From: Vulcanimicrobiota bacterium
Lineage (GTDB): Bacteria; Vulcanimicrobiota; Xenobia; Xenobiales; JADMJV01
Direction of reading: 5' to 3'
Length of the DNA: 64,000 nucleotides
Assembly (NCBI GenBank): GCA_019637395.1
Contig: JAHBVR010000014.1
Coordinates: 124,001-188,000, forward strand
How positions within the stretch are numbered: the first letter of the stretch is position 1; each line of letters opens with the position of its first letter. Below, piece by piece: positions 3,222 to 53,047 of this stretch. The position numbers were made by a program, and so were the translations under genes. The notes under the pieces were generated by a model. That model was not told where the DNA came from. It did not search any database and saw only the letters and a program-made list of their open reading frames with translations.

Positions 3222-4675
3222 CCCGGTTGCTGCTGCTTTGGGGAATGTCCCTGGCGGCCTGGGGGCAGCCGGAACCGCTGCCCACTCCGGCGGAGCCGGC
3301 GCCGGTGGTGGTGCCGGTAGCCCAGCCCAAGGTGGTGACCCGTCCGCGTTTTCTGGTGGCCAAAGGGGAGACTTTGCGTTTTCCGTCTTCCGCCAAGGTT
3401 GCGCCTCCCCTCAACGAGTTCTGTCGTTTTGAAAAAAAGGGCGGGGCCTGGTTCGTGACCGGCATCGCTCCGGGAGTGGCCAGCTTTAACTGGGAAAAGG
3501 ACCACTGGGACGTTGTGGTGCGCGAGCGCGCTCTCAAGCTGCCCGAAAAGGTGACTTTGAGCGTCTTTGGGGACTATCCGGCCGGACCGGCCTTGCTGCA
3601 CTGGGCCCGAGATTTCTTGCACCCCCGGGCCGACCTGAAAGAGGCCGGCGGAGTCTTGAAGGCCAGCGGCAGCGAACTGATCGCTTATGAGGGGACTCCT
3701 AAAGTGGAGCTCAAAAGCGAGATCTTGGAGCCGCGCAAAGCCGATGGTTTGATTCTCTCCAACTGGCCCGAGAGGATCGAGGAAGATCAGGTGGTACTGG
3801 AGGCGCCCCTGATGCCGGAAAAGCACTGGCGGGTCATGATTCACCATCGCAACATGCCGGAGCAACCTCCGCGCTGGCTGGAGGTAGAGATTATGCAGCC
3901 GGCGGGGGTGGATGAGCGCTACGCCATCACCAGTTACCTGACCGGCCCGGCCAGCGACGAGATTTTTTGCGGCCACCTGGCGGCCGCGCGTTATTTCAAA
4001 GCCCCCTTCACCGGTTACCTGGTCTCGGTGCCGGGGGGAAAGCGTCACCTGTTGGAGAGGGCGCTGCTGAAGCCAGGCCAGACCATCAGCGCCATGCTGG
4101 CGATTCGTGGGTTGGCCCCCCGTTCCCAACCGGGTCTTTTGCGCGTTTCCGTGCGCGGCCTCGACAACACCGAGCCCCTGGCGCTCCGGCCTTATGCCGA
4201 GAAAGCCCGTACGGCCCGGGGAGTTTTTCCCGCCGAGGTGGTGCGCGAGCTTAGCTATCAGGTGGGCCCGGCCTATTTATTTGAGGATATCGGTGGTCCG
4301 CCGTATCTGAACGAAGTCAGCAACGGCTCGCCCAGCCCGGGGAATTTTGGGGCCGTCTACCGTTATCGCTGGAAGCTCGAGAACCCGACCGACCAGCCTC
4401 AGGAAGTACGCATGGAGATGTCGGCGCGTGGAGGGCCGGCCCGGGCCAGTCTCTGGATCGACGGAGAGAGCCTTGAAACCGACTTGCTCAAAGCCGAACC
4501 CCGCCTGCTCAAACGCTGGCTGCTGCCGCCGGCGGGGCGGCGCGAGGTGGTGATGGAGACCTTTCCCCAAGCGGGCTCGAATTTTCCCCTGTCGGTCACG
4601 TTGAGCAGCCGGCTTGCTGGCAACCTGCCCGAAACGCCCGCGCCGGATTCGCTTCCAAATTATTACATTCCCTAG
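3218..4675 (+). CDS. Exported protein of unknown function coupled to the S9 peptidase
   Basis: A 485-residue protein whose GTG start overlaps the peptidase stop (GTGA, 4-nt overlap), which implies translational coupling. It has an N-terminal signal peptide (MTRLLLLWGMSLAAWGQPE) followed by a Pro-rich linker (residues 20-40). The rest is rich in predicted beta strands with several Ig-like stretches, for example a C-terminal module after YRYRWKLENPTDQPQEVRM that reads like a fibronectin or DUF-type sandwich. I see no catalytic motif or membrane anchor. The coupling suggests a periplasmic partner of the peptidase. This is inference from position only. Confidence 0.75.
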   Translation: MTRLLLLWGMSLAAWGQPEPLPTPAEPAPVVVPVAQPKVVTRPRFLVAKGETLRFPSSAKVAPPLNEFCRFEKKGGAWFVTGIAPGVASFNWEKDHWDVVVRERALKLPEKVTLSVFGDYPAGPALLHWARDFLHPRADLKEAGGVLKASGSELIAYEGTPKVELKSEILEPRKADGLILSNWPERIEEDQVVLEAPLMPEKHWRVMIHHRNMPEQPPRWLEVEIMQPAGVDERYAITSYLTGPASDEIFCGHLAAARYFKAPFTGYLVSVPGGKRHLLERALLKPGQTISAMLAIRGLAPRSQPGLLRVSVRGLDNTEPLALRPYAEKARTARGVFPAEVVRELSYQVGPAYLFEDIGGPPYLNEVSNGSPSPGNFGAVYRYRWKLENPTDQPQEVRMEMSARGGPARASLWIDGESLETDLLKAEPRLLKRWLLPPAGRREVVMETFPQAGSNFPLSVTLSSRLAGNLPETPAPDSLPNYYIP

Positions 4676-4756
4676 GAGTTTTCGGCAGCTCGGTAGTACT
4701 TTGGTAGAAATCGCCGTCCTAAGTTGGTCTCTAGTAACTGAAGGGACCAAACCAAT

Positions 4757-5035
4757 ATGTCAAACTTTCCATCTCTGGCGCACGAAATCACGCGTTGCCG
4801 GCAATTGCTCCAATTGAGCCAGCCTCGTCTGGCTCAGCTCATGAACCTGAAAACCCACCGCCTTTCCGACCTGGAGAAGGCGCGTTCCATTCCTTCGGAT
4901 GCCGAAGCGACGCGCATACGCCGCCAGTTGACGCAGATTTTGCACGAGGCCAGTTGGATGGTGCGACCTTCCTCGCCGGCGCTGGCTTTGGATCCACGTT
5001 TGCGGCCGCTACGCGGCCAGGGCATCGCCTGCTGA
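4757..5035 (+). CDS. Small helix-turn-helix protein (XRE-like)
   Basis: 92 residues. Residues of about 8-50 (EITRCRQLLQLSQPRLAQLM, then LKTHRLSDLEKARSIPS) fit a lambda-repressor-like HTH: helix, turn, recognition helix with 'LSDLEKGRsxPS' typical of XRE proteins. The tail is short and has no sensor domain. The leader contains an inverted repeat (TTGGTC at 4724-4729 and GACCAA at 4745-4750) that brackets the AAGGG ribosome-binding site at 4741-4745. It could be a self-operator or an RNA hairpin that hides the site. The pseudouridine synthase follows with no room for a separate promoter except the hairpin at 5041-5070. Confidence 0.6.
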   Translation: MSNFPSLAHEITRCRQLLQLSQPRLAQLMNLKTHRLSDLEKARSIPSDAEATRIRRQLTQILHEASWMVRPSSPALALDPRLRPLRGQGIAC

Positions 5036-5036
5036 A

Positions 5037-5762
5037 GTGAATCGGGGTGGCCTTCGCGAAGGCCGCCCCGCCTTGAAACTACCCGTTCTTTACCAGGATG
5101 AATGGTTGATCGCCGTGCACAAACCCGGCGGCCTGGTGGTTCACGCCAGTGAGGATGCGCCGTTGCGTGATACGGCCATCCGCCGGGTGCGCAGTCAAAC
5201 GGGGCGGAAAGTCTTTCCCTGCCACCGTTTGGATCGGCCGACCTCCGGGTTGTTGCTTTTCGCCTTTTCCGGCCAGTTGGCCCGGCCCGTCTTCGAGGCT
5301 TTCGAACGACGTGAAATCCGCAAGAGCTATTGGGTGTTGTGCCGCGGCTATCTGCAGCCCGGTCAGGAGGAATTAGATCGGCCCATCGATGGGCGTCCGG
5401 CCCTGACCCGTTTTGCCCGTTTGCGAGAGTTTTTGGTGCCGGTAGGAGTCGGTCGCTACGCCAGCTCGCGTTACAGCCTGCTGGAGGCCCGGCCGGTTTC
5501 CGGACGGCGCCATCAGATACGCCGCCATTTGAAACACTTGGCGCACCCCGTGGTGGGGGACAGCCAGCACGGTGACCTGGAGCACAATCGCTTCTTTCGC
5601 TCGTTCTTCGGATTTGGGCGCATGTTTCTGGCTTCGCGCAGTCTGGAATTGATTCATCCGGTTACCGGTCTGCCGTTGCTTTTACAAGCTCCGCTAGCCT
5701 GGCGGCTGGAGGCGTGTCTGCAACAACTGGAGGAGTTCCGCCTGAGCACCGGAAAGCCTTAA
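5037..5762 (+). CDS. truC: RluA-family pseudouridine synthase, TruC-like
   Basis: Converts a uridine to pseudouridine in structured RNA. The closest resemblance is TruC, which modifies tRNA U65. Hallmarks are LYQDEWLIAVHKPGGLVVH at the N-terminus, the catalytic Asp in HRLDRPTSGLLLFA, and the TruC-like stretch YASSRYSLLEARPVSGRRHQ followed by RRHLKHLAHPVVGDSQHGD. There is no S4 domain, as expected for TruC. GTG 5037 starts just after the HTH stop. TTG 5073 (MKLPVLYQDEW) would match the usual family N-terminus and lies after the hairpin, so it may be the true start. Length of 229-241 residues is normal. Confidence 0.85.
   Translation: MNRGGLREGRPALKLPVLYQDEWLIAVHKPGGLVVHASEDAPLRDTAIRRVRSQTGRKVFPCHRLDRPTSGLLLFAFSGQLARPVFEAFERREIRKSYWVLCRGYLQPGQEELDRPIDGRPALTRFARLREFLVPVGVGRYASSRYSLLEARPVSGRRHQIRRHLKHLAHPVVGDSQHGDLEHNRFFRSFFGFGRMFLASRSLELIHPVTGLPLLLQAPLAWRLEACLQQLEEFRLSTGKP
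5041..5070 (+). promoter_or_regulatory. Strong hairpin at the HTH-truC junction
   Basis: GGGG, T, then the perfect palindrome GGCCTTCGCGAAGGCC, then G and CCCC form an 11-bp stem (one T-G wobble) with a CGCG loop. No T-run follows, so it is not a standard terminator. It lies between the HTH stop and a possible TTG start (5073) for the downstream gene, and could limit read-through or set the translation start. Confidence 0.4.
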
Positions 5763-5766
5763 ATCA

Positions 5767-6462
5767 ATGTTTTACGGTTCGCCTTTTCCACCCAATCAAC
5801 CATCCAATCCTTCGGGTCCCGGCCCGGGGATACCGCCTATGGGTATGGGGGTTCCGCCGGCCGGCGCCGGCGCTCCGATAGCCGCCAAGCCGCCCGAGGA
5901 ACTGGCCTTCGCCGAAGCGCGCGCGGCTATCAAGCTAGAGTGCCGGGATAACGTGCCGCAACTGATGGGGGAGACCAAGAAGCTGAGCGTGGCTGTGTTG
6001 GAAGCCTGGGATTTGATGCTGGTGGCCGGCCGGCGGGGCCTGGAGCTGAACCCGGTCGAAGTGTTGCGCCAGGAAATGCAGAATCAGGTGATGGCCTACG
6101 CGTTGATGCGGTTTTTGCCCGATGAGGCCTGTAAGGGGGCGGCAGAAGCCTGCGCGGCCAAGATTCCTCAGGCTATGCAGGAGAATCCGCCGGTGGGTAA
6201 GGCGGGTTTGTTTGTGCGTGAGTTGGAGTCCCAGGTCAAGGATACGCCGCGCAACCAGGCGGCCATCAAGGAATGGCTGCTTTCGCAGCCGTTGTTCCGG
6301 GCTCTGACCAGTAATCCTCAGGCTTTCGTGAACCTGGAACAGCACTATCAGGAGTGCGCTCCCAAGATGAACCAGATCATCCAGTCGGCCAACGAGTCGC
6401 TCACCAGTTTGCTTCAGCAGCAGAGCCAGCTGCGCCCCGGGGCCCAGTTTCGTCCTTTATAG
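5767..6462 (+). CDS. Hypothetical protein with Pro/Gly-rich N-terminus
   Basis: 231 residues. The first 45 are low-complexity Pro/Gly/Ala/Met (PFPPNQPSNPSGPGPGIPPM), with no signal peptide. The rest is predicted mostly helical (for example LAFAEARAAIKLECRDNVPQ and KMNQIIQSANESLTSLLQQQ). It starts 4 bp after the TruC stop, so the two are probably co-transcribed. Similar low-complexity N-termini occur in other non-Sec proteins of this window (8050, 32169, 34244, 51801). No function is proposed. Confidence 0.65.
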   Translation: MFYGSPFPPNQPSNPSGPGPGIPPMGMGVPPAGAGAPIAAKPPEELAFAEARAAIKLECRDNVPQLMGETKKLSVAVLEAWDLMLVAGRRGLELNPVEVLRQEMQNQVMAYALMRFLPDEACKGAAEACAAKIPQAMQENPPVGKAGLFVRELESQVKDTPRNQAAIKEWLLSQPLFRALTSNPQAFVNLEQHYQECAPKMNQIIQSANESLTSLLQQQSQLRPGAQFRPL

Positions 6463-6514
6463 AATTTCTCCTGACCAGGTGCGAGTCCGGCCCAATCTTA
6501 CCCTGACTTAGACA

Positions 6515-7933
6515 TCACAGGCGGCCGACTTTGCGGCGCCGTTTGTCGGCGTACATCAGGCCGTCGGCCCGCTTCAGCAGAGCCTCCAGATCCTGGCTGT
6601 GCTTGGGATCGAAGAAGGCTATGCCGAGTGCGCAGGCGAGCCGGTATTTGCGCTCCTTGCCGGCGTTGACGCGGTCGAGCTGAGCCTCCAGGCGGGCGGT
6701 CAGGGCGATTTCGTGGTCCGGTTCCAGGTTGGCGGCCAGCATGGCGAATTCATCTCCCCCCAGGCGCGCGATCAGGTCGGCCTGGCGGAACGTTTCCCGC
6801 AGGAGCTGGGCAAACTCCTGAATCATCTGGTCGCCCACTTCGTGGCCCAGCGCATCGTTGGTTTTCTTGAGATCGTTAAGATCGATGAAAATGACCGCGG
6901 CCGACCGCACTTCGCGCTCGAAGACCAGCAGCAGCTTCTTGCCGATGCTCAGAAAGCCGCGGCGATTGGTCAGACCGGTCAGCGGATCGGTGAGCGAGAG
7001 CTCTTCTAATTCTTTGGATTGGCGCACCAGTTGCTCCAGGGCCGCCCGATAGTCGGTGATGTCTTCCAATAGGGCCAGCACGATGGGCCGGTGGCCTTCA
7101 CCGGTTACCAAAGAGGCATGCAGGCGGCCCCAGAACAGGTCGCTGCCCTGGCGGAGAAAGCGCGCCTCCAGTTCGCAGCGGGGTTTTTTGCCCTGCCAGA
7201 GCTGGTCAAGTTCCAGCAGTTGGGCCTGATCTTCGGGATGGACAAAGTCTTTGAGCTGCTGGCCGACCAGATCGGGCGAGCCCAACAGGCGCTCCCCCAG
7301 CCGGTTCGAGGTGCGGATGATGCCGGTCCGATCACAAAGCTCAAAAACACCCAGCGGGGCCTGATGAAGCAGGGCGCTGAGATGGGCCTGGCTGTGGTCG
7401 AGGGCCTGGCTGGTAAGGCGCAGGCGAATGTCGCTGACCACCGAGTCGGCCAGGTCTTTCAGGAGGTCGACGTCCCGTTGGCTGAACTTGCGCTCTTTGT
7501 TGTCGATGACGCAGAGAGCGCCCAGGGTCATGTGGTCGTTGAGCTTGAGGGGAATGCCCAGGTAGGCGCCGACGTTGAGGATGGCGCGCCCGGGATGGTC
7601 GGTGAAGCGGAGGTCTTTTTCGGCATTGTTCACCTGCAGGGGGCCGGGTTCGAGCAGGAGGCGCTGGCAGAAAGAGTATTCCAGGGGCATTTGCCCTTGG
7701 GATTGCCAGGGCTCGGCCAGGCCGTGCTGGCTGAGGAAAACCTGGCGTTGCTCATCTAGCAGAGTCACCAGGGCGGTGGGCATGTTCAGCAGTGAACTGG
7801 CCAGACGCGCGAACCGCTCGAAGGAAACGCGGGCTTCCGGCTCGAGCAGTCCGCTGCGTCTGAGAATATCGAGTCTGGCTTGGGGAGATTGGCCCATTGG
7901 CAGGGCTTCGCTTTGGCCTTGGGGATGTCCCAC
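6515..7933 (-). CDS. GAF-PAS-GGDEF diguanylate cyclase
   Basis: 472 residues, predicted soluble. Order: a GAF domain at about 35-185 (MPTALVTLLDEQRQVFLSQH, then LEYSFCQRLLLEPGPLQVNN), a PAS domain at about 190-305, a short coiled linker, and a GGDEF domain at about 315-470 with intact RLGGDEFAML. The RQAD five residues upstream of GGDEF fits the inhibitory RxxD I-site, so the enzyme should make c-di-GMP and be product-inhibited. There are no membrane segments or receiver domain, so it should sense a cytoplasmic small ligand or redox state. No EAL or PilZ gene lies nearby. It is divergent from the gene at 8050. Confidence 0.93.
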   Translation of the reverse strand: MGHPQGQSEALPMGQSPQARLDILRRSGLLEPEARVSFERFARLASSLLNMPTALVTLLDEQRQVFLSQHGLAEPWQSQGQMPLEYSFCQRLLLEPGPLQVNNAEKDLRFTDHPGRAILNVGAYLGIPLKLNDHMTLGALCVIDNKERKFSQRDVDLLKDLADSVVSDIRLRLTSQALDHSQAHLSALLHQAPLGVFELCDRTGIIRTSNRLGERLLGSPDLVGQQLKDFVHPEDQAQLLELDQLWQGKKPRCELEARFLRQGSDLFWGRLHASLVTGEGHRPIVLALLEDITDYRAALEQLVRQSKELEELSLTDPLTGLTNRRGFLSIGKKLLLVFEREVRSAAVIFIDLNDLKKTNDALGHEVGDQMIQEFAQLLRETFRQADLIARLGGDEFAMLAANLEPDHEIALTARLEAQLDRVNAGKERKYRLACALGIAFFDPKHSQDLEALLKRADGLMYADKRRRKVGRL

Positions 7934-7973
7934 CGGCTCTGCGTGTGGCCAGGAGTTAACAGGTTGTTTACTT

Positions 7974-8005
7974 TTGATCTGTACTGATAAGGGATAAATA
8001 ATCCC
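7974..8005 (+). promoter_or_regulatory. Candidate promoter with inverted repeat upstream of 8050
   Basis: TTGATC at 7974-7979 is followed by an AT-rich block with GATAAA/TAAATA. That block is also the inverted repeat GGGATAAATAATCCC (7991-8005, arms GGGAT/ATCCC). The spacing for a sigma70 promoter is a little short (about 15 bp), so this could equally be an operator in the divergent intergenic region. Confidence 0.3.
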
Positions 8006-8049
8006 ATCGTTCTATTCTTGGCCTATCAACCGAATGGAGAACAAGGATA

Positions 8050-8715
8050 ATGGCGATTGGAACTGTAGGCACCGCATCTGTACAAAATGTAGGTCAGACC
8101 AATCGCCCGGCGGGCTCGGCGGCCAACTCCCCGGCCCGGTTCGCCAGTCAGGCAGCCGACCGTACTCTGGGCGCCAGCACCCACGGCGCTGTGCAGACCA
8201 GTGCCGGCGCCGCTCCCAAAGACGGCCAGGCGGTGCTTGATTTCGCCAAGAGCAAGCAGGGCCAGAAAGTGGGCTCCGGCGAGTGCTTCGACCTGGCCGA
8301 CCAGGCTCTCAAGAAGAACGGTTTCAAAACCGCCAGCGACTACGGGCCGGTCACCAAGGACGGCGACTACCAGTGGGGTAAGGAAGTTCCGCTGGGCGAA
8401 TCCAAGCCGGGTGACGTGCTTCAGTTTCGCGACTATGAGAACGAAACCACGACCAGGACCGAGAACGACAAGGGCTGGCAAGAGAAGACCGAAACCAGTT
8501 CTCGTCCGCACCACACCGCCGTGGTGGTGGCGAACGACGGCAAGGGAAATATTACCGTGCTTGAACAGAATGCCCCCAAGGGGAGCAAAGTGACTCAGCG
8601 TGTGCTGCACATGGGCAACGGCACCAACACCAGCGAGAAGAACGGAACCACCACCACCGAGACGCAGACCACCAACGGAACCGTTACCGCTTACCGGCCC
8701 GAGCCGAAGGAGTAA
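8050..8715 (+). CDS. NlpC/P60- or CHAP-like papain-fold protein
   Basis: 221 residues with no signal peptide and a Ser/Ala/Thr-rich N-terminus of about 55 residues. Residues of about 70-190 carry a papain-like triad arrangement: Cys in GSGECFDLADQALKKNGF, PGDVLQF, His in RPHHTAVVV, and a polar third residue in LEQNAPKG. This layout is typical of NlpC/P60 or CHAP amidases that cut peptide or amide bonds, often in cell walls. The C-terminal 35 residues are Thr/Asn-rich repeats. The AAGGA ribosome-binding site at 8043-8047 supports ATG 8050. The protein may reach its substrate by a non-Sec route. The substrate is not predictable. Confidence 0.65.
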   Translation: MAIGTVGTASVQNVGQTNRPAGSAANSPARFASQAADRTLGASTHGAVQTSAGAAPKDGQAVLDFAKSKQGQKVGSGECFDLADQALKKNGFKTASDYGPVTKDGDYQWGKEVPLGESKPGDVLQFRDYENETTTRTENDKGWQEKTETSSRPHHTAVVVANDGKGNITVLEQNAPKGSKVTQRVLHMGNGTNTSEKNGTTTTETQTTNGTVTAYRPEPKE

Positions 8716-8756
8716 TCCCGGCCCTTAGCGGGAGATGAGGAAGACTCGAACGCTCC

Positions 8757-8786
8757 TTGGGTCAAGAAAGCGTCGGATGTTACACT
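8757..8786 (+). promoter_or_regulatory. Candidate sigma70 promoter for the exported protein at 8824
   Basis: TTGGGT (8757-8762), an 18-bp spacer, then TACACT (8781-8786) give a reasonable match placed about 35 bp before the ATG. A GC hairpin (TCCCG/CGGGA) without a T-run lies just upstream, after the 8050 gene. Confidence 0.35.
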
Positions 8787-8823
8787 CCATGCGTTCGAAT
8801 CAATTTTGAAAGGTAGAGAGCAT

Positions 8824-9264
8824 ATGAGATCACGGCGAGGTCAACTTCTCTTATTCTTCCTGTCTATCGCTCTGATGACCGTTTTTCCCAGCGTCGGTGT
8901 CGCCCAGTCCACCGAGCCCGACAAGCCATCACCCATCACCGGCGGTCTGATTGAGGGCGAAGTGAGCGGAAATCTGAACGACGACAAGACTTACTACTAC
9001 GTTTTTTACGTTCAGAAGGGGCCGTTCGATCTGACCGTCGATATCGACCCTATCAAGGAGACCGGCGGCGGACTGATCCGATGGTTCTACCTGGATTCGA
9101 AGTATAACCGGATCAAATGGGATCAGGTGTCGGCTCAAGGAAACCCTGAAAGGAGAGTGACTTCTTCAACGGCACTGTCAAAACAGAAGGTGATTCTGAA
9201 AGTGGTGGTGGGGGGCAACTTCCGCTACAAGATGAAGTTTTCCGGCAGCGGGTTTGTGCATTAG
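8824..9264 (+). CDS. Exported protein with a PPC-like beta domain
   Basis: 146 residues. The ATG at 8824 follows AGGTAGAGAG. The signal peptide is MRSRRGQLLLFFLSIALM..., with cleavage expected near GVAQ|S. The mature part reads like a small beta-sandwich of the bacterial pre-peptidase C-terminal (PPC) type: IEGEVSGNLNDDKTYYYVFY, then FDLTVDIDPIKETGGGLIRW, and a final strand FRYKMKFSGSG. PPC domains are secreted appendages of proteases, but here the domain stands alone. Homology is suggested by pattern only. Confidence 0.6.
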   Translation: MRSRRGQLLLFFLSIALMTVFPSVGVAQSTEPDKPSPITGGLIEGEVSGNLNDDKTYYYVFYVQKGPFDLTVDIDPIKETGGGLIRWFYLDSKYNRIKWDQVSAQGNPERRVTSSTALSKQKVILKVVVGGNFRYKMKFSGSGFVH

Positions 9265-9287
9265 TACACCTTTAATCGGATTCCGGA

Positions 9288-9604
9288 ATGGACTGGTTGG
9301 TGGTTTCAGGCGGCCCGGCGCGACCTTGAAGCAGGTTTGCTTGTTCAGGGTAATTGGCGTCGTTCCACTGTCATCAAGCCGCAGAGAAGAGCTTGAAGGC
9401 CCTGTTTGTCGAGGGGGGGTCACCGAACGGACTCACTCTGGGTTTGAGTTGCTTTCGGGGCTCCGTCAGGAGGGGCTAACGATCAGCGATGATCTTTTTC
9501 ACCAGGTGTGTAAGATTGATCGCAGCTACATCGACTCGCGCTACCCCAGCGGAGTAGCCGGGGCACAGTCCGTGATGGCATTCGTCCAGTCCAACCTGAC
9601 TTAG
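9288..9604 (+). pseudogene. HEPN-domain toxin pseudogene (two frameshifts)
   Basis: Three consecutive reading frames together spell a complete HEPN protein of the type paired with MNT nucleotidyltransferases. Frame one gives WWFQAARRDLEAGLLVQGNW (the N-terminal 'W...ArrDLeaa' helix). Frame two gives ASFHCHQAAEKSLKALFVEG (the hallmark 'F..qQAaEkalKAL' helix). Frame three gives RTHSGFELLSGLRQEG and then KIDRSYIDSRYPSG (the C-terminal 'L.r.YI.tRYP' motif), ending at TAG 9604. At least two small indels, near 9360 and 9425, are needed, so no functional protein is made. The nucleotidyltransferase remnant follows directly. Confidence 0.65.
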
Positions 9605-9886
9605 AAGTCTATTCCAGCCGCTTGCGCTCCAGGCTCAATCTGAGGTCGGTCATCGTCTTTGGTTCGCGGGCTCGCGGGGACCATTGGGAGAATAGCGATA
9701 TCAACTTACTGGCAATTTCCGATGATTTCTTGGAGTCGTGGCCCGGAATTCCCGCACTTGAACCTTTCGGGGTCACGCCCGCCGAATGCGAGGGACCTGG
9801 TTGGCTTCTACTGTGGGATGCCCTCTATCAGGCTAGAGAGAAGCTATTTGTGCGTATCCACTCGGTGGATTTGACGCCTGCAGCCG
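9601..9886 (+). pseudogene. MNT nucleotidyltransferase remnant after the HEPN pseudogene
   Basis: The frame from about 9604 reads RLRSRLNLRSVIVFGSRARG, then NSDINLLAISDDFLESW and PFGVTPAECEG, matching the MNT family order (GSRARG...SDxD, then a 'TPEEFE' segment). The second catalytic Asp of the DxD pair is Asn (SDIN), the middle is shortened, and the frame runs into the next gene without its own stop. The best start is TTG 9622. This is the expected antitoxin partner of the HEPN gene, also decayed. Confidence 0.6.
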
Positions 9887-10811: not shown

Positions 10812-11042
10812 CTACTTTCGCCTTGCACCGGCGGAATACCGGCCATTTACTCGAGGTCCAGCAAGTAGTTCAGGGCATCCCTTAGGCCCGGGCGCAAGTT
10901 GCGCCATTTCCAGGCACTGGCTCAGCCAATCGCGAGGAAACTCTTTGAGAACTTGCCACACCGCCTTTTCGAGGGCTGTCACAGTAGCTACATCCGGGTC
11001 GCTGAGCAGACTCTTGAGCGTCTCGGGGTCTGGATTTTTCAA
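10812..11042 (-). CDS. Small hypothetical protein in a tight operon
   Basis: 76 residues, predicted helical: KNPDPETLKSLLSDPDVATV, TALEKAVWQVLKEFPRDWL, then a basic tail. It starts at a TTG that overlaps the preceding stop as TTGA, an arrangement seen at several real junctions in this window (31334, for example). I do not recognise it. Overlapping starts on both sides argue for a genuine operon member, but it could also be the tail of a decayed larger gene. Confidence 0.4.
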   Translation of the reverse strand: MKNPDPETLKSLLSDPDVATVTALEKAVWQVLKEFPRDWLSQCLEMAQLAPGPKGCPELLAGPRVNGRYSAGARRK

Positions 11043-11137
11043 GACGCCAGGGAAACGGGAAGGACCACAACTCGGCCCCCATCAAGTTGGCAGAGAGCGG
11101 TGCCGATGGGACGCACGAAACGGTAGCCACGGGTCAT
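11039..11137 (-). CDS. Very small ORF (32 codons) between overlapping neighbours
   Basis: ATG 11137 overlaps the upstream stop as ATGA, and its TGA (11041-11039) overlaps the next TTG start. The product begins MTRGYRFVRPIGTALCQLDG and ends VVVLPVSLAS, which looks like a beta hairpin with a hydrophobic strand. It has no known family. The double overlap suggests translational coupling, or alternatively that the three small ORFs are fragments of one ancestral gene. Confidence 0.35.
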   Translation of the reverse strand: MTRGYRFVRPIGTALCQLDGGRVVVLPVSLAS

Positions 11138-11364
11138 GACTTCATCCAGGCGAGCAGTAAATCTCGTGCCGAGCAGGCCCAGCCGGGGTCGACTTCGGGA
11201 TAGAGCTTCAGGTCGGCGGCGATCGCCTGATCGCTCCAGGCTCGAAGGCGTTCCACCAGCAGGACTTCCTCCAAGGAAAGGAGCTCTTTGCGACCGACCT
11301 TTTCCATTTGAGGATGCTGTCGCAGCGTGGCATAGACCAAAAGTTGAGCCAGATCCCTACGCAC
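11134..11364 (-). CDS. Small hypothetical helical protein
   Basis: 76 residues from GTG 11364: RRDLAQLLVYATLRQHPQ, then LLSLEEVLLVERLRAWSDQA, ending LLLAWMKS. It is predicted all-helical and soluble. It is the first gene of a leftward chain (11364 to 10436) with ATGA, TTGA and 4-bp junctions. It diverges from the MNT remnant at 11459. No family is recognised, and the surrounding decay makes the call uncertain. Confidence 0.35.
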   Translation of the reverse strand: MRRDLAQLLVYATLRQHPQMEKVGRKELLSLEEVLLVERLRAWSDQAIAADLKLYPEVDPGWACSARDLLLAWMKS

Positions 11365-11458
11365 TCCGGCGGTTTCTATCCCGGCTGAATTCCACCCCGG
11401 TAGGAGGCTTGCTGGTTCTGCCGGCGCTTATCGACTCATCTCAAAGACTCCTCCGCCG

Positions 11459-11686
11459 GTGAGAGGAATCCCATGGTGTGAACGATATGTCCAGGCTGTC
11501 TATCTCTTCGGCTCGCATGCCCGCGGACGTCAACGACCAGATTCGGACCTCGATCTGGCCGTGCTTCTGCCGTCCCAAATATGCGACGGGGAAGTTTGGA
11601 AAAAACGCCTCTTATTGGGCGCTCGCGCTGCCGAAAGCCTGGAGAGAGAGAACGCTCGGCCGGGGGAGGGAAGCCTCTCCCGTTAG
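11459..11686 (+). pseudogene. Truncated MNT nucleotidyltransferase
   Basis: 75 residues from GTG 11459 with an intact catalytic signature, YVQAVYLFGSHARGRQRPDS followed by DLDLAVLLP, so GS...DxD is present. The family normally runs 100-140 residues. Here it ends soon after GARAAESLERENARPGEG, where an intact member would enter its last strand and helix. It overlaps the end of the convergent EamA gene by 4 bp. No HEPN partner is visible on the same strand. It is most likely a 3'-truncated antitoxin, the third such relic in the first 12 kb. Confidence 0.6.
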
Positions 11687-12561
11687 CCTTCGGAGTACCC
11701 CACCAGGGGGATGTAGGAACGGAAGACGCGGGCGTTCAGGCTGGTTTTGACTGTCAGCAGGATGACCCCGGCCAGGATCAGCAAGATGGCCGGGCCGGCC
11801 GTGGACGGTAGAGCCTCACCGACCAGGGCTGAGAGAGCCACCGCCACCACCGGGTTGACGTAGGTATGGGTGGCTACCAGGCTGGGGCTGGAATGGCGCA
11901 ACAGCCAGGTGTAGGCGGTCATGCCGATGAGCGAGCCGGCCACCACCAGGTAGAGCCAGGCGGCGATGGCGCTGAAGGTGATGGGGCCGGTTAAGGTTTC
12001 CTGGATGAACAGGCTGAGGGCGGTGAGAACACCGCCGGCGGCCAGCATGGTCATGCCGGAGAACTGGATGCTGCTCTCGGGTTTGTCCAGTTGGGGAGAG
12101 AGCAGGGTGGCGGCGGTCCAGCTGAGTGAAGCGAAGAGGATGGCCAGGGTGCCGATGGTGAGGCTGCCCGGGTCTTGCATCAAACTGAACAGGCCCAGGC
12201 TGGCCAGCAGGATGCCGGCCACGGTGGCGTGGCCGGGGTAGCCCCGGCGGTAGAAGCTCCAGAGGGCGATCCACATGGGGGTGGTGGCGTTGACCAGCGC
12301 GGCCTGGCCGGAGCTGACCGTCTGTTCGGCCCAGGCCACCAGGCCGGTGCCGGTCGAGAGCAGCAGGGTGCCCATGATCAGGGCCGAGCGCCACTGCTTG
12401 AGAGTGGCCGGTTTTCTGACGTAGAGAAGCAGGAGCAGGCCGGCCACGGCAAAGCGCGCGCCGCTCATGGCGAGCGGAGGAAAAGCTTCCAGGACATAGC
12501 GCACGGCCAAGAAGGTCGAACCCCAGATGAGGTAGATAGAGGCGAGAGCTAGCGTTTGCAT
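11683..12561 (-). CDS. EamA-family (DMT) exporter
   Basis: 292 residues with ten hydrophobic helices in two EamA halves (first about 5-130: ASIYLIWGSTFLAVRYVLEA, then a Trp/Gln segment AWAEQTVSSGQAAL; second about 140-280, ending ALSALVGEALPSTAGPAILL). Members export amino acids and other small metabolites across the inner membrane. It diverges from a MocR-type regulator 99 bp away. In known pairs, a MocR/PLP regulator senses an amino-acid-like ligand and controls the adjacent exporter, so an amino acid or amine substrate is a reasonable inference. Confidence 0.9.
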   Translation of the reverse strand: MQTLALASIYLIWGSTFLAVRYVLEAFPPLAMSGARFAVAGLLLLLYVRKPATLKQWRSALIMGTLLLSTGTGLVAWAEQTVSSGQAALVNATTPMWIALWSFYRRGYPGHATVAGILLASLGLFSLMQDPGSLTIGTLAILFASLSWTAATLLSPQLDKPESSIQFSGMTMLAAGGVLTALSLFIQETLTGPITFSAIAAWLYLVVAGSLIGMTAYTWLLRHSSPSLVATHTYVNPVVAVALSALVGEALPSTAGPAILLILAGVILLTVKTSLNARVFRSYIPLVGYSEG

Positions 12562-45700: not shown

Positions 45701-46882
45701 ATGGCCGACTTCCCCGCCCTGGGTCCTGGCTTGCCCATGCAGCCTCTGCCCCGCATGCGCCACCTGGCACCCAACGTCACCGACAGCGAGACCCCCCAAT
45801 CCGGCACGCTGCAAATCGTCGACCACTTCACCCCCCAAGTGGACGATTCCATCCCCCCGATGCCCAACCCCAATGGCGGGCTCCCTTTCAGGGCAGTGCG
45901 CATGCCCCACGGCATCAGAGTCACCGACTCGGCCTTGCAGACCGGCTATCAAGGGCGAATCAACACCAGCGAGTTCCCCAATCCGCAGATCCATTCGCCC
46001 GCCATGCTCCTGTCTTTCCGCGGGCAAACCCCGGAACAGACCCTGGAGATCCTGGATACGGCCGTCCGGCTCGACAGCGGCTCGGTGGCGGTAGGGGCCA
46101 TGCAGAGCCTGAATACTCAGGCGCAGGCCGGAGTGCGCAACACCGTTACGAACTTCTCGATGGCCGGCAGCCCCTCGAATATCACCGAGCATCTCTATCA
46201 TGACATCAGTCTGGCCTGGAATCCCGCCCGACCCGACGCATCGATCGAGGAGCAGGGACGGCGCTTCACCGGCCAGGGGATGTCCGAAAATCTGGCTCGC
46301 GCCTGGAACATTGATCCTGCGGCTCTTACCAGCGCCGATCCGGCCATCTCGGGGCCGGCTCGCCAGCAATTTCAACAGAACCTGATCAACCGGACCAGCC
46401 AGGCGGTGCGCACGCCCGAAATGGATCAGCTGCGGGAGCGTTTGAATTCCGTAGTGGATGGTTATGAATCGCGGAATAATTCGGTGGTTGTGGCAGCCGG
46501 CAACAATGGCGACCTGGCCGCTGCGATGCGGCGCGACAATGGAGGCCGCGAGCTCCAATTTCCCGAGGGTTTTTACGACAACATTCTGGCCACCCCCAAT
46601 GCCACCACCGTGGGAGCGCTGGGCGTGACCGGAGCCAACAACCAGATCGGTGTGGCTGGGTACAGCAGCCCGACTCCGACCGTGGATCTGAATGCCTGGG
46701 GCAACCCCGCCCGGGGAGTGGAGGGTACTTCCTTTGCAGCTCCCCGTGTGGCCGCCCAGATGCAGGAGTTGCACAATCGCTTTCCGGATCGCAGCAGCGC
46801 CCAGATCGAAAGGATGCTGCGCGACCAGTGCTACGCCAACGGTAATGAAATAACCGGCTGCCGCCTGGATACGGTGCAGTAA
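45701..46882 (+). CDS. Divergent subtilisin-like (S8) serine protease without signal peptide
   Basis: 393 residues. Residues in subtilase order: Asp in LQIVDHFTPQVDD (about 41), His in MPHGIRVTD (about 69), oxyanion Asn in VVAAGNNGD (about 267), Ser in GVEGTSFAAPRVA (about 343). Spacing between Asp and His is short and the region between His and Asn is an unusually long helical insert (LYHDISLAWNPARP...). It starts at ATG 45701, preceded by GGGAGAA, with no Sec signal. It may be a cytoplasmic or otherwise exported protease. It lies next to another subtilase at 47363. Confidence 0.8.
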   Translation: MADFPALGPGLPMQPLPRMRHLAPNVTDSETPQSGTLQIVDHFTPQVDDSIPPMPNPNGGLPFRAVRMPHGIRVTDSALQTGYQGRINTSEFPNPQIHSPAMLLSFRGQTPEQTLEILDTAVRLDSGSVAVGAMQSLNTQAQAGVRNTVTNFSMAGSPSNITEHLYHDISLAWNPARPDASIEEQGRRFTGQGMSENLARAWNIDPAALTSADPAISGPARQQFQQNLINRTSQAVRTPEMDQLRERLNSVVDGYESRNNSVVVAAGNNGDLAAAMRRDNGGRELQFPEGFYDNILATPNATTVGALGVTGANNQIGVAGYSSPTPTVDLNAWGNPARGVEGTSFAAPRVAAQMQELHNRFPDRSSAQIERMLRDQCYANGNEITGCRLDTVQ

Positions 46883-47362: not shown

Positions 47363-48670
47363 TTAGCCCTGGCCCTGGTCGACCGCGTGGCCGAGCAGCG
47401 CACCGTGGGCGTTGAGGCGGTTTCCGTCAACGACCTTGGACTTCCAGCTGTCGAGTTTATCGGCGCCGTTGAGGATGCGTTCCTTGATTTGCTCGGCGGT
47501 CAGGTCGGGGAAGGCCGAAGCCACCAGACCGGCCACGCCGGAGACGTGAGGAGTGGCCATCGAGGTGCCGCTCATCATCTGGTAGCCGCCGCCCGGGGCG
47601 CAGCTATAGATGTCCTTACCGGGAGCGGTGATGTCGACCATGGTCGGACCATAGTTCGAGAAGCCGGGCTTCTTGTCGTTGCGGTCGCTGGCGGCCACGG
47701 CGATGTTGTTGCTCAGCTCGTAGTTGCTCGGGTAGTTGGGATAGAGGTCGTTGTTCATGTAGTTGTTGCCGGCGGCCATGATGTGCAGCGCCGACGAAGC
47801 GGCGAAGGCTTCTTTCTGGGCTTCGCTGGCTCCACCACCGCCCCACGAGTTGGAGGTGATTTTGGCGCCCATCTTGGTGGTGTACTCGATACCGCGCAGG
47901 ATGGAGGCCGAGTCGGTGCTGCCCGAGTCGTCGAAGATTTTGACGGCCATAATTTGGGCGTTGTGGTTGACGCCTACGACGCCGATGCCATTGTTGCCGA
48001 CAGCGCCAATGGTTCCGGCGCAGTGGGTGCCGTGGCCGTGACCGTCCATCGGGTCGCCGGTCTGGGCGTTGGCGTTGAAGCCGTGCACGTCGTCGATGAC
48101 GCCGTTGCCGTCGTCGTCGATGCCGTTGCCGGGGATTTCACCTTTGTTGACCCACATGTTGGCGGCCAGGTCGGGGTGGTTGTAGTCGACGCCGGTGTCG
48201 ATGACAGCGATGATGGGAGCGTCGTTGCGGCCGGTATGAATCTGCCAGGCGCCCAGGGCGTCGATGTCGGAGCCGGCGGTGCCGCCGTTTTGACCGGTAT
48301 TGTTGAGGCCCCACAGCTCGGGAACCAGGTCGTTGGGTTCGGCCGAGTTGCTGGCGGGCGGGTTGGGCTGCGGCTGGCCGCCACCCTGTTGCTCGCTGGG
48401 GTCCAGTCTGTAAATGTAGTTGGGTTCCACGTAGGCGACGGCCGGGTCGGCCTTCATCTTGGCGATGGCTTGCTCGGTGGTCATTCCCGCGGGCAGCTGA
48501 AGCTGCATCAGTTCACCTTTGTCGATCAGGCCGCTCTGGCCGAAATCAAACTTGTCGGCGACGGTGGCGCCATATTTGTCGGCGAAATTTTCGCTGGAAG
48601 CGAGGGCGCGGCTGTTGTCGCCACGGGTACGAACGATAACTTGTCCGGGAACGTAATCGGCCTTAATCAT
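47363..48670 (-). CDS. Subtilisin-like (S8) serine protease
   Basis: 435 residues. Residues of about 1-90 resemble an inhibitor I9-type prodomain (VPGQVIVRT..., MKADPAVAYVEPNYIYRLDP). A Gln/Pro linker (EQQGGGQPQPNPPASNSAE) leads to the catalytic domain: Asp in VIDTGVDYNHPDL (about 157), His in GHGHGTHCAGTIG (about 213), Asn in HIMAAGNNYMN and Ser in MMSGTSMATPHVSGV (about 368). It lacks a classical signal peptide. Calcium-site loops (GIDDDGNGVIDDVHG) are typical of thermitase-like subtilases. It is divergent from the structured RNA gene and may share its control region. Confidence 0.95.
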   Translation of the reverse strand: MIKADYVPGQVIVRTRGDNSRALASSENFADKYGATVADKFDFGQSGLIDKGELMQLQLPAGMTTEQAIAKMKADPAVAYVEPNYIYRLDPSEQQGGGQPQPNPPASNSAEPNDLVPELWGLNNTGQNGGTAGSDIDALGAWQIHTGRNDAPIIAVIDTGVDYNHPDLAANMWVNKGEIPGNGIDDDGNGVIDDVHGFNANAQTGDPMDGHGHGTHCAGTIGAVGNNGIGVVGVNHNAQIMAVKIFDDSGSTDSASILRGIEYTTKMGAKITSNSWGGGGASEAQKEAFAASSALHIMAAGNNYMNNDLYPNYPSNYELSNNIAVAASDRNDKKPGFSNYGPTMVDITAPGKDIYSCAPGGGYQMMSGTSMATPHVSGVAGLVASAFPDLTAEQIKERILNGADKLDSWKSKVVDGNRLNAHGALLGHAVDQGQG

Positions 48671-48801: not shown

Positions 48802-48831
48802 TTGACAGCCGAAACCTGGGTATCATATATT
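48802..48831 (+). promoter_or_regulatory. sigma70 promoter for the structured RNA
   Basis: A perfect TTGACA (48802-48807), then 17-18 bp, then ATATAT/TATATT (48825-48831). The expected start is near 48833-48838, where the first RNA stem begins. Confidence 0.75.
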
Positions 48832-48832
48832 T

Positions 48833-49824
48833 CGGTCCTCGAAACGACTCTTCGGAGTCGCGACCGACGCACTGATGGGCGTATCATCAGGGGTAGCTTG
48901 CAGACCAGGTTAAGCCGGAGAGAATTGGCTTCGCATAACCCAATTCTGGCCCGATACAGCAACGGGTGCCCGCGAGGGCGGAACTTCGTCAGGTACTTCG
49001 GTAATAGGCGAGGGGAAAACCCGACCGAGCTGGTGTTAATCGGGAATCCTGGGCAGGAAGGTGGCTCCCAGGAGGCTCTGTCCCGCCAGAGGGGCAGGGG
49101 AGTGTATAACCTCAGTACACAGCGCAGAGAGCAGCGAAATGTATGCTCTCGGGCCTCATCGGCCCTGAGAACCGCGAGGTGAAAGCCTGCGGGCGGGAGT
49201 CTTCGGACGAAAGCCCACAGCACTCAGGAAACCAGTGGGGAGCCTGGACAGGGAGAAGAGGCGTCCAGGAGGCACTGTCCCGCCGTGGGGCAGGGGTAGC
49301 CTGTAGACCGAACAGGCGGCCGGGCGGCACCGGCGCAAAGCGATCGAAAGCAGTGTCGTGAGGATCACATCAATGGGTCGGACCGCGAGGATGAACGGAC
49401 GCGCTGGGAACCGGTGAATAACCGGAGAAAAGCACGCCTACCCGACTCAACCAAAAGGGAACTCGGCAACGAACAAACCCGATGGATGTGGGAGCCTGGT
49501 GCAGGAGGACGGCGACCAGGGGGCTCTCATTCGGCCTGGACGAATGAGGGGTAGCTTGCAGACCTTAGCAAGCCGCTGAGCTTTTACAGCGTGAGCCACT
49601 AAAGGGCAGAAAAGAGGTGTCTCGGAGAGGGTGCTCCTCTTAGAGACCTCAAAAGAGAGGCCGGGATCGGCGACAGGAACCGCGAGGTGAAAAACTCGCC
49701 GCAGGAAGTCCTACGGGACCGAAAGGGGTAGAGGACCTGCTCAAACCGATCCACCGGATGCCTGGTGTTGGAGTGGAAGGCAGCCAGGCAATAAAAACCA
49801 CCTGAGAGATCGGGTGGTTTTTTG
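48833..49824 (+). ncRNA. Large ornate structured RNA (about 990 nt) with four repeat modules
   Basis: No protein gene is credible here. Four copies of one module lie at 48833-48917, 49048-49122, 49243-49319 and 49495-49575. Each has a first stem (CGGTC/GACCG, CCTGGG/CCCAGG, CCTGGAC/GTCCAGG, CCTGGT/ACCAGG), a linker like AGGAGGC, a second stem (CTGATG/CATCAG, CTGTCCC/GGGGCAG twice, CTCATTCG/CGAATGAG), the conserved GGGGTAGC or a close variant, and a third stem whose loop carries AGACC in copies 1, 3 and 4 (GCTT/AAGC, GTGTA/TACAC, GCCTGT/ACAGGC, GCTTGC/GCAAGC). The stems change while pairing is kept. CCGCGAGG follows at 48970, 49172, 49383 and 49680, and UNCG-loop hairpins (TACTTCGGTA, GTCTTCGGAC, GTCCTACGGGAC) follow modules 1, 2 and 4. 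It has a promoter and terminator. I do not match it to a known RNA family by eye. Confidence 0.85.
49794..49824. terminator. Intrinsic terminator of the structured RNA (bidirectional)
   Basis: AACCACC (49796-49802), loop TGAGAGATCG with one extra G, GGTGGTT (49813-49819), then a T-run (49818-49823). On the other strand TTTTTATT follows, so it also serves the roadblock gene ending at 49839. A preceding hairpin GCCTGG/CCAGGC (49760-49789) closes the RNA's last domain. Confidence 0.88.
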
Positions 49825-49838
49825 TTGTAGCCACTTTC

Positions 49839-50168
49839 TCACCGTGAAAAAGCCCACTCGATGCTCTCGCCGACCTGGCGGGCGAAGGCGAGATACTCCA
49901 TCCCCTGGGCGCGATCCAGGCCAAAAACAATGACCAAATGAGACCCGGCCCGGTCCAACAGGGCAAATTCCCGGCCCTGGCCGGACATGGCAGGCCTGAT
50001 CGCGCCGTCCAGCAAGGAATAGGCTTGGGGGCCGAGCAGGCTGGGAGCCCATTCCATTCCGCTAAAATCGCCCGCGCGGATCAGAATATCGCCGTTTTCC
50101 GCCAACACGGCACCGCATTTCAGAGAATGCTCGTTTAAAACGAAATTTAAAGCCCTTTCAGCTTCCAT
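49839..50168 (-). CDS. Roadblock/LC7-domain protein
   Basis: 109 residues from ATG 50168. The fold pattern is that of roadblock proteins such as MglB: an N-terminal helix MEAERALNFVLNEHSLKCGA, strands AVLAENGDILIRAG, a helix SLLDGAIRPAMSGQG and strands FALLDRAGSHLVIVFG, then a final helix. Members act as dimers that regulate small Ras-like GTPases (MglA) or serve as cytoskeletal scaffolds. It overlaps the hxlR end by 11 bp, so the two are co-transcribed. No GTPase gene lies nearby. Confidence 0.65.
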   Translation of the reverse strand: MEAERALNFVLNEHSLKCGAVLAENGDILIRAGDFSGMEWAPSLLGPQAYSLLDGAIRPAMSGQGREFALLDRAGSHLVIVFGLDRAQGMEYLAFARQVGESIEWAFSR

Positions 50169-50520
50169 CAAAACGGCTACGCGCCGCCTCCATCTCCGCC
50201 TGATGTCCCACAGCCCAATCCACCAAACCCTGCACAGGAACCAGCAGAGTGGCCCCCAGGGCGGTCAATTCGTAATCCACCCGGGGAGGCACCGAGGGAG
50301 TCACCGTTCGCAACACCAATCCATCTCTTTCCAGTTCTCGCAAACTATAGGTGAGCATTCGCTGAGAGATCTGGGGGATGGCCCGGCGTAACTCATTGAA
50401 CCGCAATTTTCGCTGAGATAGCTGATAGATGACCAGCAGGCTCCATTTGTCGCCCACCCGTTCCAGCACCTGGCGAATCGGCTTACAGGCCTCAGGCACA
50501 TGAGTGTTACTTAGTGACAT
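50158..50520 (-). CDS. HxlR-family transcriptional regulator
   Basis: 120 residues, winged helix. CKPIRQVLERVGDKWSLLVI, then QLSQRKLRFNELRRAIPQIS, QRMLTYSLRELERDGLVLRT and VDYELTALG are family-typical. Cys12 near the N-terminus matches the redox-sensing Cys of YodB/HypR members. It diverges by 48 bp from an azoR-type gene. In Bacillus subtilis YodB represses azoR1 and responds to quinones and diamide through that Cys, so similar control is likely here. Confidence 0.92.
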   Translation of the reverse strand: MSLSNTHVPEACKPIRQVLERVGDKWSLLVIYQLSQRKLRFNELRRAIPQISQRMLTYSLRELERDGLVLRTVTPSVPPRVDYELTALGATLLVPVQGLVDWAVGHQAEMEAARSRFDGS

Positions 50521-51186: not shown

Positions 51187-51804
51187 ATGTGGGAATTTCT
51201 TCTGACCGCGGCGCTGGCCGCCAATCCTCTCGATTCCGTTTTGGACCGGCTGGACTCCGGCGCCGCCGAGGTGAGCCTGCAGGTCCGACTGATCCCCTCC
51301 AGCCTGGACCCCGACGTGCTCTGGATGCCCTACGATAGCCTTGCCAAAAGTCACGATGGAGGGCACTGGATTCCACCGCTCCGGCAGGGCATTGCGGAAA
51401 AAGCCCTGCCGGAATGGCCAGCTCAGGAGGGCACCACCCGTTTCGCCTGGAGCGATGAGTTGGAGCGCCGCTACTACCTGCCGGTGGCCCGACGCTTCGC
51501 CACCCAGCAATTGCCTTTCCGCATCTCGCTACAGGTCGAAGCCTCGCGCAACGCTGAGCAGAGCTGCAGCTTGCAAGTGGAAGTCAGCACCACGGTCGTG
51601 AGCGACGCCAGCGCCATTTCCACCGCAACCACCCGGGTGAGAACTCGCCGCGCCGAGGGGCAGCTGTTGCCCGGACAGTCGCTGGTGATTTCCAATCTCT
51701 ATCCTTATGAAGAAGTGTTGCCGATTTTGGGGGAAATGCCCGTCCTCGGCCCGCTCTTCTTGCCCTCCACTACCGGTCCCATGGTCGTATTGACACCGGT
51801 TTAG
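51187..51804 (+). CDS. Short exported protein resembling the secretin C-terminal domain
   Basis: 205 residues. An Ala-rich hydrophobic N-terminus (MWEFLLTAALAANPLDSVLD) may be a signal. The C-terminal region reads RRAEGQLLPGQSLVISNLYP, then YEEVLPILGEMPVLGPLFLP and TTGPMVVLTPV, which matches the distal part of type II/IV secretins ('GqtlviGGL....kvPlLGdiPvLG.LF......elvillTP'). Here the middle and gate regions are missing, so it cannot form a secretin pore alone. It may be a fragment or a captured domain. It ends with a 4-bp convergent overlap. Confidence 0.6.
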   Translation: MWEFLLTAALAANPLDSVLDRLDSGAAEVSLQVRLIPSSLDPDVLWMPYDSLAKSHDGGHWIPPLRQGIAEKALPEWPAQEGTTRFAWSDELERRYYLPVARRFATQQLPFRISLQVEASRNAEQSCSLQVEVSTTVVSDASAISTATTRVRTRRAEGQLLPGQSLVISNLYPYEEVLPILGEMPVLGPLFLPSTTGPMVVLTPV

Positions 51805-52856
51805 CTCTGCTTGAGAAAGCCGACCAGGGCATTGGCCAGGCCCGGGTTGCGGCCCCAGCCGTCGTCGATCCCCTGCCAGTTGGAGCCGCCGAAGCCGCGT
51901 TGCTTCATGAAAGCGCGCAGGTCGTCGCCGGTTTTGATCTTGCCCGACTTGACCGCTTCGGTCAGCGCTCCCACGTGGTTGCCGCCCGCTTTGCTATTGG
52001 GCATGCGGGCGTCGCCGTGGAGAATGTTGCCCAGGAACTTGGTGTACTTCTCCGGCGTGTTGGTCTTACTGGCGTGATACTTCTGATTGAACTGAGCAAA
52101 CCCCAGCATGTTGTTGCCCGTACCGCCGCGGCTGGTGAAGAAGTCGGTAGCCGTCTTACCCTTGCCGTACATCTCGGTGCCGCCGATAGCCAGGGCCAGG
52201 GCCGTGGCCGCGCGCCCTTCGGGGGTGGTGGTGTTGAAGCGAGGGTCGTTTTTGTTGAGAGCGCCGCTGAGTTTTTCCAGGCTTCCATAGCCGTCCGGCA
52301 AACTGATGGCTCCGTTGGACTTGGCCGGGTCGGCCTGGGCGGCCGGGTCGGCCTTGGCAGCCGGGTCGGCCTTGGCAGCCGGGTCGGCCTTGGCAGCCGG
52401 GTCGGCCTTGGCAGCCGGGTCGGCCTTGGCGGCGGGATCGGCCTTGGCCGCCGGATCGCCTCCCTGGAGTTTACCGATGGTATCTTTGCCGATGATGCCG
52501 TCCGACTTGATATGCTGCTGCTCCTGGAAAGCTTTGACGGCGTCCAGGGTCTTCTGGCCGAACTTGCCGTCGACATCGAGCTTGGCACCCTTGGCGTTGA
52601 GCATCTCCTGGATTTGCCTGACGTCGTCCCCTTGAGCCCCTTTTTTCATCGGCTTGGAGCCGAAGCTGGCCCCGAAATCGGGGGTGGCCCCCGCCTTACC
52701 CTTCTCTCGGGAAAGACTGGACTGATCGGTGGGTTGCTTAGGAGTCGCCTCTTTTTTCTGAGTGGCGGGCTTGTCTTTTGATACGCTGGAGCTTCGCTGG
52801 GTGGAAGCTTTCGGTGTGGATCTGCTGGCACTACTGTCTTTGGAAATGGATGACAT
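51801..52856 (-). CDS. Peptidoglycan-binding and lysozyme-like protein with PAAKAD repeats
   Basis: 351 residues from ATG 52856, with AAGGGA upstream. The N-terminus is Ser/Thr/Lys/Pro-rich (MSSISKDSSASRSTPKASTQ) with no Sec signal. Residues of about 70-135 are a PG_binding_1 domain (KKGAQGDDVRQIQEMLNAKG, DVDGKFGQKTLDAVKAFQEQ, SDGIIGKDTIGKL). Seven PAAKAD/PAAQAD repeats form a linker (about 137-178). The C-terminal 160 residues look like a lysozyme-type domain (ATALALAIGGTEMYGKGKTA, NMLGFAQFNQKYHASKTN, GSNWQGIDDGWGRNPGLANA). It probably cleaves or binds cell wall. Confidence 0.75.
   Translation of the reverse strand: MSSISKDSSASRSTPKASTQRSSSVSKDKPATQKKEATPKQPTDQSSLSREKGKAGATPDFGASFGSKPMKKGAQGDDVRQIQEMLNAKGAKLDVDGKFGQKTLDAVKAFQEQQHIKSDGIIGKDTIGKLQGGDPAAKADPAAKADPAAKADPAAKADPAAKADPAAKADPAAQADPAKSNGAISLPDGYGSLEKLSGALNKNDPRFNTTTPEGRAATALALAIGGTEMYGKGKTATDFFTSRGGTGNNMLGFAQFNQKYHASKTNTPEKYTKFLGNILHGDARMPNSKAGGNHVGALTEAVKSGKIKTGDDLRAFMKQRGFGGSNWQGIDDGWGRNPGLANALVGFLKQS
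52320..52455. repeat. 18-bp tandem repeat encoding PAAKAD
   Basis: Seven in-frame copies of an 18-bp unit (core GGCCTTGGCAGCCGGGTC on the plus strand), several identical. Copy number may vary between strains by slippage. Confidence 0.8.
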
Positions 52857-53047
52857 GATAAATCCCTTTCGCCCTGATTTGATCCTAGAATGGCACGAAT
52901 GCACCATGGGGGAGAATGTCCAAAAATGAACAGAAGATTGCGGTTGTTTCCAAGTTGTTGACGAGTTTGTCTAAGAAAGACGAGCGGCGGGACAACAGTT
53001 ATTATCCTGAAGCTACTGGAAGGTTTAGAGCTGAGCGCGAACTTTGT

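Follow-up and report, generated by a model that had tools for sequence, protein, structure and literature searches.

A large noncoding RNA built from tandem pseudoknot units, very probably one locus of an undescribed RNA family in Eremiobacterota

The window, by which we mean the whole stretch of 64,000 nucleotides that was analysed (G000:C6:124001-188000), belongs to a 7.66-Mb genome. A segment of its plus strand appears, from its promoter and terminator patterns, to be an intergenic RNA gene (Table 1), flanked on one side by an S8 peptidase gene (47363-48670) that is fervidolysin-like, lies on the minus strand and is divergent from the RNA, and on the other by a small gene (49839-50171). A second S8 peptidase-like gene lies nearby (45701-46882), and in G002 a paralogous RNA (L048) likewise has an S8 gene from the same cluster beside it. 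Further along, a protein with a peptidoglycan-binding domain (51801-52907) contains ADPAAK repeats in a run (52300-52500).

The original prediction placed a promoter and an intrinsic terminator at the two ends of this region and saw no coding ORF between them, and all three claims hold up. The promoter is the sole promoter-like site within 48.5-50.0 kb, and transcription probably proceeds from it; transcript ends, here and across the family, are taken from such patterns. Both arms of the terminator can be located and are kept in relatives with compensatory changes, and the element is absent from the output of a simple terminator scan. In G001, G003, and G004, other sequence stands in place of the hairpin of the 5′ leader. 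No reading frame stays open across five homologues; conserved frame fragments appear simultaneously in several frames and on both strands, as expected of conservation at the DNA level. Furthermore, GC content by codon position is flat in the RNA region, unlike in the flanking genes, and the predicted fold is more stable than those of 20 shuffles (z = -4.4).

Table 1. Predicted elements of the RNA locus, in coordinates of the window.
Feature	Position	Strand	Remarks
Sigma-70-type promoter, TTGACA-18-TATATT	48802-48831	+	11/12 matches; conserved in G000-G003
Noncoding RNA, about 990 nt	48835-49824	+	start inferred from promoter
5′ leader hairpin, UUCG loop	48846-48859	+	from sequence; also in G002
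Unit 1, PK1 with stem H2	48868-48890	+	CGC/GCG, full 3 bp
Unit 1, PK2 with stem H3	48890-48915	+	GGGGUA-GCUUGC-AGACC...
Unit 1, CC-GNRA-GG tetraloop hairpin	48970-48977	+	
Unit 1, closing hairpin H1	49048-49072	+	CCUGGG/CCCAGG
Unit 2, PK1 with H2	49074-49097	+	
Unit 2, PK2 with H3	49098-49120	+	variant GGGGAGUG...AACC
Unit 2, CC-GNRA-GG	49172-49179	+	
Unit 2, H1	49243-49269	+	CCUGGAC/GUCCAGG
Unit 3, PK1 with H2	49271-49293	+	
Unit 3, PK2 with H3	49293-49317	+	
Unit 3, CC-GNRA-GG	49383-49390	+	
Unit 3, H1	49495-49520	+	CCUGGU/ACCAGG
Unit 4, PK1 with H2	49522-49548	+	
Unit 4, PK2 with H3	49548-49573	+	
Unit 4, hairpin H4	49574-49591	+	loop CUUUU pairs with AAAAG at 49651-49655 (PK3)
Unit 4, CC-GNRA-GG	49680-49687	+	
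Unit 4, final H1	49760-49789	+	directly before terminator
Intrinsic terminator	49793-49823	+	arms 49793-49805 and 49810-49822

The RNA was originally described as four modules of three hairpins each. The four-fold repeat is real, but the first stem, H1, is missing from copy 1 and there is an additional H1 in front of the terminator, so that the true repeat is H2-H3-X-H1, present in four copies. Two recurring motifs lie where they had been placed, GGGGTAGC at 48890, 49293, and 49548 (with a variant in copy 2) and CCGCGAGG at 48970, 49172, 49383, and 49680. In contrast, the UNCG tetraloop claimed for copy 4 is mostly H2 and pseudoknot sequence, and three pseudoknots per unit had been overlooked. 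The modular, duplicated layout itself is borne out by a module profile that finds all four copies and 70 more in related loci (74 modules on iterated search). Copies 2-4, which were part of the seed of a covariance model, match that model at E = 1e-11 to 2e-19. The arrays in general read n x (H2-H3-X-H1), in which the first unit opens at H2 and the last closes with H1 before the terminator.

Homologues with compensatory changes bear out the proposed structure, with 94.2% of cells pairing over 72 units. The covariation score over these units is 0.548 as compared with 0.167 for shuffled sequences and 0.05-0.08 for slid controls, and none of 500 shuffles reaches the observed pairing, covarying cells, or score; since these statistics take in related paralogues, the counts are inflated and the shuffle fractions are not true probabilities. 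H1 (CCUGG.../...CCAGG) is paired in 98.6% of cells with its changes compensated, while H2 and H3 are paired in 94% and 92%, and 11 of their 13 pairs show compensated changes. An unsupervised ranking by mutual information likewise brings the stem pairs and the PK2 pair to the top.

The pseudoknots are conserved in pairing rather than in sequence. In PK1, the three bases immediately 5′ of H2 pair with the H2 loop, and the full 3-bp match is found in 86/86 units as opposed to 60 in the best of 1000 shuffles; the loop partner was allowed at any of six offsets with G-U pairs accepted, and the shuffles were given equal freedom. The PK1 triplets are of eight kinds (GGC, GGU, CGG, CGC, GAC, GAU, GCU, and AGU). 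In PK2, a [G/A]G after H2 pairs with C[C/U] in the H3 loop, and the varying pair is G-C in 66 units and A-U in 18, with no exceptions and two units unreadable; in alignment A4 both pairs are formed in 100% of units, the varying one as 59 G-C and 13 A-U. PK3 occurs in last units, where the H4 loop pairs with a segment about 20-70 nt downstream. The CUUUU/AAAAG of the window covaries to CUCA/UGAG, CUUAG/CUAAG, CUUCU/AGAAG, UUACAG/CUGUAA, and others elsewhere, and the summed match length over 20 units is 103, above the maximum of 96 in 1000 shuffles.

Outside this core, the CC-GNRA-GG hairpin recurs with GCGA, GUGA, GAGA, and GAAA loops, and peripheral helices vary in length. In long members, which fold at z of -4 to -6, these helices carry UUCG or GNRA caps far above chance (13 UUCG-capped helices vs. 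0.7 expected, and 19 GNRA-capped vs. 3.9). The comparative data show a predicted unit composed of hairpins, H-type pseudoknots, and the GNRA hairpin; every unit tested has two of the pseudoknots, and last units have a third. No convincing inter-unit or inter-molecular helix emerged among 15 related sequences, in which the signals look like phylogenetic noise.

The window RNA almost certainly belongs to an undescribed family of noncoding RNAs whose members are large, stand-alone, and chromosomal. BLASTN finds homologues of 76-89% identity in the other four species of the genus and several partial paralogous matches in every genome. A first covariance model (R1; 86 positions, 20 pairs) matches 16 modules in the host genome, 19-26 in the other species of the genus, and weak ones in G006, a member of another family of the same order. 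A second model, restricted to the pseudoknot core (R2; 64 positions), reaches E of about 1e-14 in G006, which contributed units to its seed. The G006 sequence itself, when read, shows complete arrays that have TTGACA promoters as well as terminators. R2 also finds two loci outside its seed in the sister genus (G005), which measure about 1.56 and 1.9 kb between promoter and terminator and are assigned to the family on weak model scores together with the shared core, H1, promoter, and terminator; BLASTN adds further copies, several at contig ends.

All five species of the genus carry the RNA family, with about 16-31 units each. There are about six to ten loci per genome (7-10 in each of the five species), although the genomes are drafts, mostly metagenome-assembled, and the counts are approximate where assemblies are fragmented. 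A locus holds two to about seven units in a transcript of about 0.4-1.9 kb, and the unit itself is conserved. In the host genome there are seven loci, all preceded by TTGAC-type promoters: four units each on C6 (the window), C5, C3, and C36, two each on C1 and C35, and seven PK2-type modules on C8. The C8 paralogue is about 1.6 kb (L101 5950-7670, minus strand) and has ten UUCG-capped hairpins where 0.5 are expected. Among the longest members is the G005:C224 RNA of about 1.9 kb (L139 883-2795), with 13 such hairpins against 0.7 expected.

The family appears to be confined, as found, to one order of Eremiobacterota. Of the 149 genomes of the phylum searched, carriers included, the other 142 contain no array, and weak single matches in G027, G126, G134, G011, and G016, each isolated, were not counted as members. 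None of 50,697 phage or 72,556 plasmid records gives a match. Beyond the phylum, the searches covered 84,980 species genomes with an exact 17-mer and viral contigs with a degenerate one, and distant relatives could have been missed because only 17-mers were used. Exact matches in Chloroflexota, Rhodoferax, Desulfogranum, and Colimorpha were set aside as chance, with model scores of at most 13.5 bits, as were the IMG/VR viral-contig matches, which score at chance level.

Inheritance of the RNA is vertical, as several loci keep their synteny throughout the five species of the genus. When the loci are sorted into groups (A-F and H), those of D, E, and F keep the same gene neighbourhood in all five, A and B are syntenic in four, and C and H in fewer; the group A homologue of G004 lies in a different neighbourhood. 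Units also retain their positional identity within arrays across species. The neighbours vary by group and include the S8 peptidase, an export-apparatus FHIPEP/FlhB-like gene, DUF188, and a SpoIIE response regulator, and no gene is consistently linked to the RNA when synteny groups are compared and neighbours scanned with Pfam. Because the neighbours differ between groups, the RNA is an orphan, and cis regulation of a neighbouring gene was rejected on the same ground. At the group D locus of the host genome (G000:C36, L056 ~4198-9770), which adjoins the gene with FHIPEP and FlhB-like matches, the RNase P RNA gene is found at a distance of about 4.3 kb, with five tRNA genes about 8 kb off on the opposite side.

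The orphan status asserted in the original prediction is supported. Nothing in the region matches Rfam at gathering score, the matches below threshold (E up to 10) being due to chance, and the paralogous RNAs scanned contain no Rfam family match. The Rfam 15 families whose thresholds are not reached include ROOL, GOLLD, OLE, raiA, HEARO, 6S, tmRNA, RNase P, and introns, and no paper on structured RNAs of Eremiobacterota was found in the literature searched. The family is very probably new; by resemblance, the large ornate RNAs nearest to it are ROOL, GOLLD, and OLE, to which it is unrelated in sequence. ROOL and GOLLD are likewise large, ornate, orphan RNAs of unknown function. They give no sequence or covariance match, and what sets the present RNAs apart is the internally repeated array and the six to ten chromosomal paralogues per genome; also, they are often, though not always, found in phage or prophage context, whereas the present family has no phage or plasmid match. 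OLE is likewise a large structured chromosomal RNA, but it is not known to be a tandem array and no Rfam match connects the two. A different likeness is to tmRNA, which has several H-type pseudoknots in series as the window RNA does; neither ARAGORN nor Rfam detects a tmRNA at the locus. We know of no other large structured bacterial RNA built from tandem repeats of one folded unit.

The reading that we favour, held at or a little below even confidence, is that the RNA may work as a multivalent structural molecule. Each unit would fold into a compact, pseudoknot-locked domain that offers the same contact surface (the PK1-PK2 core, the GNRA loop, and the G-rich H1 loop), and the array would repeat this surface two to seven times in cis. 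This could serve as an RNP scaffold on which several copies of one protein come together. Alternatively, it could give rise to a particle of RNA alone that has internal pseudo-symmetry, comparable to the ROOL and GOLLD homo-oligomers but made of a single chain. A conserved unit structure combined with a freely varying unit number is what would be expected if all units present one and the same surface for binding or docking. More tentatively, the RNA may be a single-chain, internally repeated machine of an undescribed kind, in which covalent tandem repetition of a multi-pseudoknot domain replaces oligomerisation. If so, the paralogues within each genome would form a set of differing valency (two to about seven units, lengths up to 1.9 kb), as is the case for repeat proteins.

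Multivalency would be expected of a sponge no less than of a scaffold. Titration of a regulatory RNA-binding protein or small RNA by each unit would resemble CsrB, CsrC, and RsmZ, which are likewise stand-alone RNAs with repeated sites, and paralogues do differ in site number. Nevertheless, this role is rather unlikely, as the sites here are large folded pseudoknot domains and not short loops. CsrA as the titrated protein was rejected, since it is missing from three of the six carriers examined for it (G000, G001, and G006; present in G003, G004, and G005) and GGA is not enriched (36 vs. 34.9 in shuffles). All six carriers tested for Hfq encode it, but its presence is uninformative as genomes without the RNA have it too.

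Equally doubtful is an RNA-only homo-oligomer, a cage or fibre assembled from separate molecules. ROOL assembles as 8-mers, GOLLD as 14-mers, and OLE as a dimer, all without protein (PMC12286853), and the window RNA is comparable in size, orphan status, GNRA loops, and dense structure. Yet its units are already linked in cis, the 15 related sequences reveal no inter-molecular covariation, and the absence of an Rfam match indicates no homology to the three.

The tandem layout, in which units of one array differ among themselves, could also suggest a precursor cut into single units that act as separate small RNAs. This is improbable given that units keep their positional identity across species, that the linkers are conserved, and that nearly all arrays read show the H2-H3-X-H1 phase and finish with an H1. 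A catalytic or mobile RNA (a ribozyme, an intron-like or a self-copying element) is more improbable still; the RNA is multi-copy and strongly structured and one group A homologue, that of G004, has a different neighbourhood, but most loci are syntenic, every copy comes with a promoter and terminator of its own, neither a ribozyme nor an intron of Rfam matches, and no transposase or reverse transcriptase lies beside the loci scanned with Pfam. Finally, a protein-coding or chance G+C-rich intergenic sequence, which overlapping ORFs of up to about 150 codons might suggest, is refuted by the covariation evidence (0/500 shuffles as high, PK1 in 86/86 units) and by the lack of a frame kept across homologues, and can practically be discarded.

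Large structured bacterial RNAs are few, and those recently solved are RNA-only assemblies. The present family is among the longest of them, with several paralogues per genome, and the many natural variants of its repeated unit can be used to study covariation, to determine structures, and to test function. The role of large ornate RNAs thus becomes directly testable.

One further comparison concerns Y RNA and YrlA with Rsr (Ro60), which are likewise structured RNAs. No Rfam Y RNA match is found, and a Ro/Y RNA is unlikely since only G005 among six carriers tested has a TROVE (Ro60) gene. On G005:C155 (L147), this TROVE-domain (Ro60-like) gene (10969-12522) is found about 1.8 kb downstream from a giant RNA of the family (~7630-9196), a proximity that may be coincidence as no other tested carrier has the gene.
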